Part shown: piece by piece, positions 56,108-62,256 of the stretch
How the letters are laid out: each line of letters begins with the position of its first letter
Numbering within the stretch: position 1 is the stretch's first letter
From: Ancylobacter amanitiformis
Lineage (GTDB): Bacteria > Pseudomonadota > Alphaproteobacteria > Rhizobiales > Xanthobacteraceae
NCBI RefSeq assembly: GCF_030814815.1
Contig: NZ_JAUSVR010000011.1
Span: forward strand, 1-64,000
Length of the DNA stretch: 64,000 nucleotides
Direction: 5' to 3'
The notes under the pieces: generated by a model
What the model was told of the DNA's origin: nothing
The model's database searches: none
What the model saw: only the letters and a program-made list of their open reading frames with translations
Made by a program: the position numbers and the translations under genes

Positions 56108-56389
56108 TCCGCCGCTCCGGAAATCGGTTGGCGGGCGCGGGGGCACGCGCCGCGCCGGTGAACCAAGGGTGTCGGCAGGAAATGTCGCATGCGCGCTCGG
56201 CACGGAGTTCAGCGGGAGTTCGGCACGCCGCGGGGGAGGGCGCGCGCCGCGATTATGGCGCGATGCCGGGGTTCCTCCCAACGGAATCCGCCACTCGCGC
56301 GCCGCATGTTGCCAAGGAGCAAGCGGGAGCGCGCCCTCGTGGCGCGCCGGGCGCGTCTGACCCCATTCTTGGTCTCGATCGAAGATGAG

Positions 56390-56436
56390 ACCCAACCCAT
56401 TGACATGAACTGAGGTCGCACATCTATATCTAGGGG
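56390..56436 (+). promoter_or_regulatory. Pair of NrdR-box-like sites overlapping the nrd promoter
   Basis: Two sites resemble the NrdR consensus core CWATATATWG: CAACCCATTG at 56393-56402 (7 of 10) and CTATATCTAG at 56424-56433 (9 of 10). Their starts are 31 bp apart, the three-helical-turn spacing typical of tandem NrdR boxes. They overlap the -35 and -10 elements, as expected for repression by NrdR with bound dATP/ATP. No nrdR gene is in the window. Confidence 0.65.
56400..56430 (+). promoter_or_regulatory. Promoter of the nrdAB operon
   Basis: A consensus -35 TTGACA lies at 56400-56405, with TATATC (56425-56430) as a candidate -10; the 19-base spacing is slightly long, and CTATAT one base earlier is an alternative. 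Transcription starting near 56437 would begin just before the cobalamin riboswitch. Confidence 0.55.
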
Positions 56437-56449
56437 TCACGGTCTCTCG

Positions 56450-56645
56450 AATCCATGGGGTTCGCGAGCTAAGAGGGAATTCGGTGCGCCATCGGTCCTG
56501 CGTCTGGGGACCAGGCAAAACCGGAGCTGCCCCCGCAACTGTAAGCGGCGAGCCGACGTCCATTCCGCGTCACTGAACCCGCAACGGTTCGGGAAGGCCG
56601 GACGGAGGCATTGACCCGCGAGCCAGGAGACCTGCCGCGACAGCA
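56450..56645 (+). promoter_or_regulatory. Cobalamin (AdoCbl) riboswitch in the nrdA leader
   Basis: The conserved cobalamin aptamer elements occur in order: AAGAGGGAATTCGGTG (56471-56486), CCGGAGCTGCCCCCGCAACT followed by GTAAGCGGCGAG (56521-56552), GGGAAGGCCGGACGG (56591-56605) and the B12 box AGCCAGGAGACCTGCC (56621-56636). The nrdA start is 125 bases after the B12 box, leaving room for an expression platform. In other bacteria such a switch represses the B12-independent class I reductase when cobalamin is available for a class II enzyme. The gap 56108-56389 upstream holds no supported gene. Confidence 0.95.
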
Positions 56646-56760
56646 TGTAACGTCCCTGGGCGGGGTGTCCCGGTGGTGCGCTGGCACTTCCGCGGCTCGT
56701 CCGCCGGATTCCCATCGCGTCCGCTCGGCCTTTGCCCCCCAACATCTGGGGTTCAAGCCG

Positions 56761-59655
<2,895 letters not shown>

Positions 59656-59675: not shown

Positions 59676-60809
59676 ATGATGCTCGACTGGTCCGACCTCG
59701 ACAGCCCCCCGGCCCGCCCGCTTTCCCCCGCGCCCGCCGGCTACGCCCCGCCGGCGGATGCCGGCGGTCTCGGCGAGATCGACCGCTCCGGCGCGCGGGT
59801 CTCGGTGGACGACAAGCGGATGATCAACGCGCGAGCCGACGTGAACCAGCTTCTGCCGCTCAAATACAAATGGGCGTGGGAGAAGTACCTGTCCGGCTGC
59901 AACAATCACTGGATGCCGACCGAAGTGTCGATGCAGGCCGACATCGCGCTTTGGAAATCGCGCGATGGCCTGACCGAGGACGAGCGCCGCGCCATCAAGC
60001 GCAATCTCGGCTTCTTCGCCGCGTCGGAAAGCCTTGTCGCCAACAATATCGTGCTGGCGATCTATCGCCACCTCACCAATCCGGAATGCCGGCAATACCT
60101 CTTGCGACAGGCCTTCGAGGAAGCGGTGCATACCCACACCTTCCAGTACATCGTGGAAAGCCTCGGGCTGGATGAGGGCGAACTGTTCAACATGTACCGC
60201 GAGGTGCCCTCCATCACCGACAAGGCGGCGTGGGCGCTGAAGCATACCCGGCATCTCGACGACGCGGAATTCGCGACCGGCACGCCGGAGGCCGACCAGG
60301 CCTTCCTGCGCGATCTCGTGGCCTTCTATGTCGTGTTCGAGGGCATGTGGTTCTACACCGGCTTCGCCCAGATCCTGTCGCTCGGCCGACGCAACAAGAT
60401 GGTCGGAATTGCCGAGCAATATCAATATATTCTGCGCGATGAGAGCATCCACCTGAATTTCGGCATCGACGTGATCAACCAGATCAGGATCGAGAATCCG
60501 CATTTGTGGACGCCCGCCTTCCAGGACGAGGTGCGCGCCATGCTGAAGGACGCGGCCGATCTGGAAGCCGCCTATGGCCGCGACACCATGCCGAACGGGT
60601 TCCTCGGGCTGAACGCGGCCTTGTGCGAACAATATATGCACTTCATCGCGAACAGGCGCTGCGCCCAGATCGGGCTGGCGCCGGTCTTCGCGGAAACCCC
60701 CAACCCGTTCCCGTGGATGAGCGAGACCATGGACCTCAAGAAGGAAAAGAACTTCTTCGAGACCCGCGTCATCGAATACCAGAATGGCGGCGCGCTGGCC
60801 TGGGACTGA
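59676..60809 (+). CDS. nrdB: Ribonucleotide reductase, class Ic-type small (beta) subunit
   Basis: A 377-residue metallocofactor subunit. Metal ligands are in [41 protein letters not shown] and [11 protein letters not shown]. Two features mark class Ic: the residue four after the first ligand His, the radical Tyr of class Ia enzymes, is Phe (HTHTF), and the first ligand is Glu rather than Asp (ASES). Class Ic enzymes, known from Chlamydia, use a Mn(IV)/Fe(III) cofactor instead of a tyrosyl radical; metal content here is inferred. ATG 59676 has AGAAGGA upstream; GTG 59652 overlapping the nrdA stop is an alternative. Confidence 0.92.
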
Positions 60810-62180: not shown

Positions 62181-62256
62181 TGGCTCCCTGAGCAGGACTC
62201 GAACCTGCGACCATTCGATTAACAGTCGAACGCTCTACCAACTGAGCTATCAGGGA
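62181..62256 (-). tRNA. tRNA-Asn (anticodon GTT)
   Basis: On the minus strand the gene folds into a full cloverleaf: acceptor stem TCCCTGA/TCAGGGA, D arm TAGCTCAGTTGGTAGAGCG, anticodon stem TTCGA/TCGAA around loop CTGTTAA (anticodon GTT), and T arm GCAGG-TTCGAGT-CCTGC. Discriminator G and an encoded CCA (62181-62183) follow. Length is 76 nt including CCA. Confidence 0.97.

Follow-up and report, generated by a model that had tools for sequence, protein, structure and literature searches.

The stretch of DNA analysed here (the window, 64,000 nucleotides from Ancylobacter amanitiformis) contains a cobalamin riboswitch that ends 108 nt 5' of nrdA, on the same strand as the ribonucleotide reductase operon nrdAB (Table 1). 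The aptamer matches the Rfam model RF00174 over model positions 1-189 of 189, with a score of 127.2 bits at a gathering score of 31.5 and E-values of 5.4e-33 (2.5 kb searched) and 1.4e-31 (whole window searched). At the Rfam gathering score, no second cobalamin riboswitch is found across the whole window. Judged by this covariance model, the element is a complete cobalamin riboswitch. An earlier note on this DNA had described a full B12 aptamer and suggested an Rfam search; the whole-model match bears out that description, although the span given there, 56450-56645, lies inside the match and misses the 5' side of P1.

Table 1 Features of the nrdAB locus in the window, and further riboswitches at related loci
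Feature	Position	Strand	Remarks
Promoter region with TTGACA and two NrdR-box-like motifs	56390..56436	+	TTGACA 56400-56405; motif cores 56393-56402 (CAACCCATTG) and 56424-56433 (CTATATCTAG), 31 bp apart
Cobalamin riboswitch aptamer (RF00174)	56423..56653	+	127.2 bits, full-length match
Loop L5 (CCCCCG), complementary to L13	56530..56535	+	Position from the Rfam structure line; complementarity from sequence reading
P13 hairpin (56656-56660 with 56669-56673)	56656..56673	+	Loop L13 56661-56668 (CGGGGUGU); conservation, RNAalifold
Shine-Dalgarno sequestor hairpin	56725..56761	+	CCCC 56735-56738 with GGGG 56748-56751; outer stem UCGGC/GCCGA
nrdA (large subunit of class I reductase; 964 aa; ATP cone at the N-terminus)	56761..59655	+	NF005544, 1693.8 bits; PF03477, PF00317, PF02867
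nrdB (small subunit of class Ic type; 377 aa; radical site occupied by Phe156)	59676..60809	+	NF005550, 674 bits
Further riboswitch beyond nrdB, related loci	L063 10420-10624; L067 884-1094; L069 549-761; L073 11942-12146		

The nrdAB operon and its small subunit

Both genes score far above the NCBI equivalog cut-offs (NF005544 for nrdA, NF005550 for nrdB), and their position and strand agree with the earlier proposal that the riboswitch precedes an nrdAB operon of class Ic. One ATP cone is recognised in NrdA (PF03477). In class Ic reductases, the radical tyrosine is replaced by Phe, Leu or Val, while the carboxylate and histidine ligands are kept. The corresponding site of NrdB is F156, in the motif EEAVHTHTF, and a string search finds the remaining ligand motifs present. 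All 98 close NrdB homologues read (the window, 17 family relatives and the best 80 of at least 593 named loci) have Phe at this residue; three distant class I proteins (L080-L082) have Tyr there. Among solved structures, NrdB is best matched by 6y2n (678 bits), which we take to be the class Ic R2 of Saccharopolyspora, followed by 4d8f, 1syy and 2ani (456-458 bits), presumably class Ic R2 proteins of Chlamydia; NrdB is homologous to them and has Phe at the radical site. By these residues and matches NrdB is of class Ic type, and it would be expected to hold a Mn/Fe cofactor.

Outside the window, a 50-residue piece with 71% identity to the C-terminus of NrdB is located some 2 kb away from the intact nrdB of genome G016 (G016:C1:175037-175186), perhaps the remnant of a second copy. 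In one genus member, the second class I NrdB is a distant one and has Tyr (L082, G023:C18:93000-101000). In the window, the - strand carries a tRNA gene at 62184-62256 (RF00005 of Rfam, 75.2 bits).

Promoter motifs and expression platform

An upstream TTGAC is present in 60 of 64 alphaproteobacterial loci. The consensus of 59 loci aligned on it contains a C-W-A-T-A-T-N-T-W-G-like motif twice, at a spacing of 31 bp, a pair resembling tandem NrdR boxes. The pair in the window agrees with the consensus at 15 of 18 letters, and no other of the 63,950 positions scores as high at spacing 31; its first box is degenerate. A generic sigma-70 scan lists no + strand promoter at 56390-56436. The organism's own genome encodes nrdR (TIGR00244, 164.9 bits, G000:C4:189822-190256). 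Upstream of nrdJ, the best box pair reaches 14 of 18 letters (1,400 positions, three spacings searched), and NrdR control may thus extend to both enzymes. At the nrdAB promoter, the tandem pair would add NrdR control to that of the riboswitch, and two signals would then be read.

The P13/L13 block lies directly 3' of the Rfam aptamer and is nearly invariant across the 18 loci of the organism's own family. The CGGGG of L13 (56661-56665) complements the CCCCG of L5 (56531-56535), and the two loops are predicted to form a kissing loop; L5 is invariant, so covariation is unable to test this pairing. Further downstream, the sequestor hairpin pairs its CCCC with the Shine-Dalgarno-like GGGG, located 9 nt before the ATG in the window and 3-11 nt before it in the 60 loci modelled, and the last A of the outer stem is the A of the nrdA start codon. 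From 28 platforms, RNAalifold recovers P13 and the CCC/GGG hairpin unprompted, with 0 pairs changed on both sides. Paired cells amount to 95.0% for P13, 84.3% for the outer stem and 94.6% for CCCC/GGGG. Pair counts give 2 pairs changed on both sides, as many as are reached by 110 of 500 shuffles. The platform is kept mostly as sequence, so covariation lends little support.

The folding model covers 60 of the 64 alphaproteobacterial leaders, leaving out L101, L102 and L107, where the Shine-Dalgarno-like run was not found, and L135, where an in-frame AUG is absent. Across these 60 loci, the ribosome-binding site is unpaired with a mean probability of 0.122 in the free state, of 0.011 with L13 blocked to mimic its engagement by L5, and of 0.062 with other windows of the same length blocked. 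Among the 35 loci above 0.05, blocking L13 causes an at least fivefold fall in 30, versus 2 for the control-window mean; in 32 of the 35, at least one control window reduces access to the ribosome-binding site as strongly as L13 blocking does. In L073, blocking L13 slightly raises this access. In the free state, the C-rich arm of the sequestor pairs with L13 at a probability above 0.1 in 33 of the 60 loci and above 0.5 in 15, with a mean of 0.225 versus 0.632 for its pairing with the ribosome-binding site. For the window and its nearest relative, L064, the model gives a probability of 0.00 between the C-rich arm and L13 and a ribosome-binding site closed in both states, so the proposed alternative pairing rests on the relatives.

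The platform suggests translational OFF control, with moderate support from the relatives. The idea of an intrinsic terminator was dropped, since no terminator-like site is found on the + strand of 56150-56800. A leader peptide starting from a GTG in L13 was set aside, since the aptamer-to-ATG distance among relatives is not constant modulo 3.

Occurrence of the riboswitch and of NrdJ among relatives

Within the organism's own family, the riboswitch precedes nrdA in 18 of 18 operons. Named genomes were scanned for relatives, of which the best 80 of at least 593 were kept. Five loci cut before the nrdA start (L085, L088, L127, L143 and L150) were dropped, as was L122, which has Ns upstream of nrdA and is only seemingly switch-less. 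Among the assessable named operons from these best 80 of at least 593, a cobalamin riboswitch is located before nrdA in 62 of 74 and is absent in 12. The total comes to 80 of 92 assessable close relatives, window included (the named part being the best 80 of at least 593). The earlier note had called the pairing with a class Ic enzyme less documented, which is fair in print, but in genomes it is the norm among close relatives of this operon. The 92 loci belong to Alphaproteobacteria, Acidobacteria and Actinobacteria, and are the best-matching relatives of one protein, no random sample of class Ic enzymes.

L162 is counted as switch-bearing by a home-made model alone (29.2 bits); with Rfam's own model it does not reach the cut-off. 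In L154, L155, L158 and L160-L162, which are actinobacterial and have a shorter NrdA, the first aligned residue served to decide by eye whether the riboswitch stands before nrdA. In the switch-less Actinobacteria, a filters-off search and a fuzzy motif search gave no convincing divergent riboswitch; two Nocardiopsis gave weak full-length matches in the filters-off search, at 9.7 and 4.9 bits.

The prediction that an nrdJ lies elsewhere in the genome came true when the genome was checked: the gene is located at G000:C2 about 508976-512701 on the - strand (NF005736, 2298 bits, cut-off 1737), its start coordinate being taken from the beginning of the profile match. The same genome contains four cobalamin riboswitches. 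Two of these are divergent at C17, where the surrounding genes, from the proteins read, are presumably cobQ, cobO, a cobalt transporter gene and cobN, and CobI is found at C17:23993-24691. These B12-synthesis genes indicate that the organism probably makes B12 itself. All 30 genus genomes examined contain NrdJ and CobI, both above cut-offs. In 14 of the 30, NrdJ is the sole protein matched by the reductase model used (class III enzymes lie outside this search), so DNA synthesis there may depend on B12. Close homologues of the window's NrdB occur in 18 of 61 genomes (2 of 7 other family members, 0 of 24 members of other families and 16 of 30 in the genus), and the class Ic nrdAB operon is thus patchy within the genus.

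Of the 78 genomes with the switch, 72 have a detected NrdJ, compared with 6 of the 12 that lack the switch (90 genomes, the named ones from the best 80 of at least 593; L123 and L134 left out; Fisher p 0.0009). For the named genomes alone, again from the best 80 of at least 593, the counts are 54 of 60 versus 6 of 12 (p 0.003); they are 32 of 35 versus 6 of 10 for the isolates among them, a weaker association (p 0.034), and 45 of 50 versus 1 of 6 when Actinobacteria are removed (p 0.0004). With shared descent allowed for, 6 independent pairs yield 3.9 that agree, 0.1 that oppose and 1.9 ties (median p 0.125), and the association is then a trend only.

Six loci have NrdJ and no switch (L140, L144, L147, L148, L156 and L159, five of them actinobacterial), and six have the switch with NrdJ undetected (L083, L086, L089, L120, L146 and L157, of which L086, L120 and L146 are metagenome bins). 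Neither is found in six further loci, including the metagenome bins L099 and L109. One of the loci with NrdJ undetected, L089 of Erythrobacter tepidarius, combines the riboswitch-bearing class Ic nrdAB with a second class I nrdA.

A comparison is also offered by class Ib operons. Genome G059 has NrdJ and a cobalamin riboswitch before a class Ib nrdHIEF-like operon (L081 1740-6237, G059:C1426; genes named by protein reading), and this riboswitch has a P13 and a CCCC/GGGG hairpin similar to those of the window. In contrast, G041 gives no match for NrdJ, and a riboswitch was not found before its class Ib operon; the nearby cobalamin riboswitch precedes metE (L080; named by protein reading). This contrast, together with the NrdJ counts, was taken in favour of the operon being a backup of NrdJ.

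Proposed function, precedents and spread

We consider it very probable that an adenosylcobalamin-type OFF riboswitch governs the class Ic nrdAB operon as a backup for the B12-dependent NrdJ. Most likely, the cell would make the NrdAB backup only when B12 runs short. When B12 is plentiful, L5 of the bound aptamer would engage L13, the hairpin before nrdA would bury the GGGG ribosome-binding site, and deoxyribonucleotides would be made by NrdJ. When B12 or cobalt is scarce, the free L13 would instead pair with the C-rich arm of the sequestor, which would open the ribosome-binding site and allow NrdAB to be made.

Similar arrangements are known. The nrdABS riboswitch of Streptomyces coelicolor is reportedly the subject of Borovok et al. 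2006. As described in an excerpt of PMC4991794, Streptomyces nrdABS encodes a B12-independent reductase called class Ia, preceded by a cobalamin riboswitch with transcriptional control. The S. coelicolor system resembles that of the window in its riboswitch before nrdAB and its nrdJ, with B12 thought to choose the enzyme (same excerpt), but the enzyme of the window is of class Ic type and its leader layout suggests translational control. Membership of the Streptomyces nrdABS enzyme in the same class Ic lineage was rejected: typical Streptomyces NrdB proteins have Tyr in 21 of 21 read and share 33-36% identity with that of the window (the S. coelicolor protein being unplaced among them). An exception is S. 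nanshensis (L151), with Phe at the NrdB radical site. The home-made model found no riboswitch in the Streptomyces nrdB loci, where the stretches reach only about 1.5 kb beyond nrdB and are uninformative on nrdA leaders.

Propionibacterium acnes likewise has cobalamin riboswitches at nrdAB and nrdDG, an NrdR box before nrdAB, and nrdRJ elsewhere; it differs in being an actinobacterium with a single nrd-box at the nrdAB promoter, where much transcription appears to stop before the first gene (excerpt of PMC3848588). In delta-proteobacteria, B12 elements precede nrdDG, whose product is also a B12-independent reductase with predicted B12 repression when NrdJ is present (excerpt of PMC545781), but of class III. 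Riboswitch-controlled metE, as in G041 (L080), is comparable in that B12 represses a B12-independent isozyme; the enzyme is a methionine synthase and no reductase. The rule invoked in the earlier note, that B12 shuts off the class I enzyme, therefore has precedents in Streptomyces nrdABS and in nrdDG (excerpts of PMC4991794 and PMC545781), and repression of a B12-independent reductase by B12 is already published for class Ia and class III enzymes, and for P. acnes nrdAB and nrdDG (excerpt of PMC3848588).

Riboswitch control of a class Ic reductase was not found described in the literature searched, older subscription papers lying outside it, and the excerpt of PMC4428469, which treats mycobacteria, does not describe the pairing. 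A standing partnership of the riboswitch with a class Ic enzyme in several bacterial groups seems to be undescribed. The new elements here are its breadth, the likely translational platform, the NrdR-like promoter and the apparent mobility, whereas the logic is ordinary: a known rule is extended to a class Ic enzyme, which uses no tyrosyl radical.

Three other explanations were weighed. A riboswitch-like sequence arisen by chance or decay and without function has next to no probability, and an artefact was rejected: the match of 127.2 bits spans the complete RF00174 model, and 17 family relatives as well as 46 other alphaproteobacterial nrdA leaders show full-length matches too. The same riboswitch and logic could also act mainly on transcription, by premature (for example Rho-dependent) termination, and not on translation start. 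The transcriptional control described for Streptomyces nrdABS and the early stop seen for P. acnes nrdAB would fit this (excerpts of PMC4991794 and PMC3848588), as would the leader of the window, whose ribosome-binding site does not open in the folding model. We regard it as unlikely but a real possibility, since no terminator-like site is seen on the + strand of 56150-56800 and a conserved hairpin buries the GGGG, which in the 60 modelled loci lies 3-11 nt from the ATG.

It is improbable, in our estimate, that the switch serves a purpose other than NrdJ backup, such as metal economy or a choice between two B12-independent reductases. The six switch-bearing genomes with NrdJ undetected, including E. 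tepidarius with its second class I nrdA, point in this direction, but three of these six are metagenome bins, and NrdJ accompanies the switch in the other 72 of 78 genomes (named part from the best 80 of at least 593) and in the organism's own. Backup of NrdJ by a B12-repressed nrdAB operon is the reading we prefer.

The backup operon may also be mobile. Within a few kilobases, the upstream genes tested are common only to G005 (L064) among the 17 operon-bearing family relatives, and in four others the matches are confined to weak ones to ABC transporters, at about 30% identity. In the NrdA and NrdB tree (fasttree), Acidobacteria fall among Alphaproteobacteria and Erythrobacter among Phyllobacteriaceae, the latter grouping suggesting transfer of the L089 operon. 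In a tree of 135 riboswitches, those of nrd operons cluster as if they were inherited together with the operon, with 7 label changes where 100 shuffles give 42.1 on average and no fewer than 36; many branches of this short-RNA tree are weak. The Erythrobacter riboswitch groups with those of the window and L064, and the acidobacterial and actinobacterial switches form separate groups of their own. In both trees, moreover, L065 (G006, of the window's genus) falls together with Beijerinckiaceae and Methylobacterium. Together, the two trees fit joint transfer of switch and operon within Alphaproteobacteria.

Tentatively, and with somewhat less than even confidence, we propose that an NrdR-regulated promoter, a cobalamin riboswitch and class Ic nrdAB form a portable module that spreads among NrdJ-dependent bacteria, letting them swap a cobalt-based for a manganese/iron reductase under B12 or cobalt shortage. 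The RNA part of the module would move with the operon within Alphaproteobacteria and tend to go when NrdJ is lost, with clearly different versions before the same operon in Acidobacteria and Actinobacteria. The operon would thus resemble a transferable safeguard against a lack of B12 or cobalt that brings its own sensor, and the natural contrasts of presence and absence are available for testing when such control is kept or lost. In addition, four genus members carry a further cobalamin riboswitch that is oriented toward the operon and lies past nrdB, at a distance of about 2.5-5.3 kb; these four (L063, L067, L069 and L073) make up a separate cluster in the riboswitch tree.
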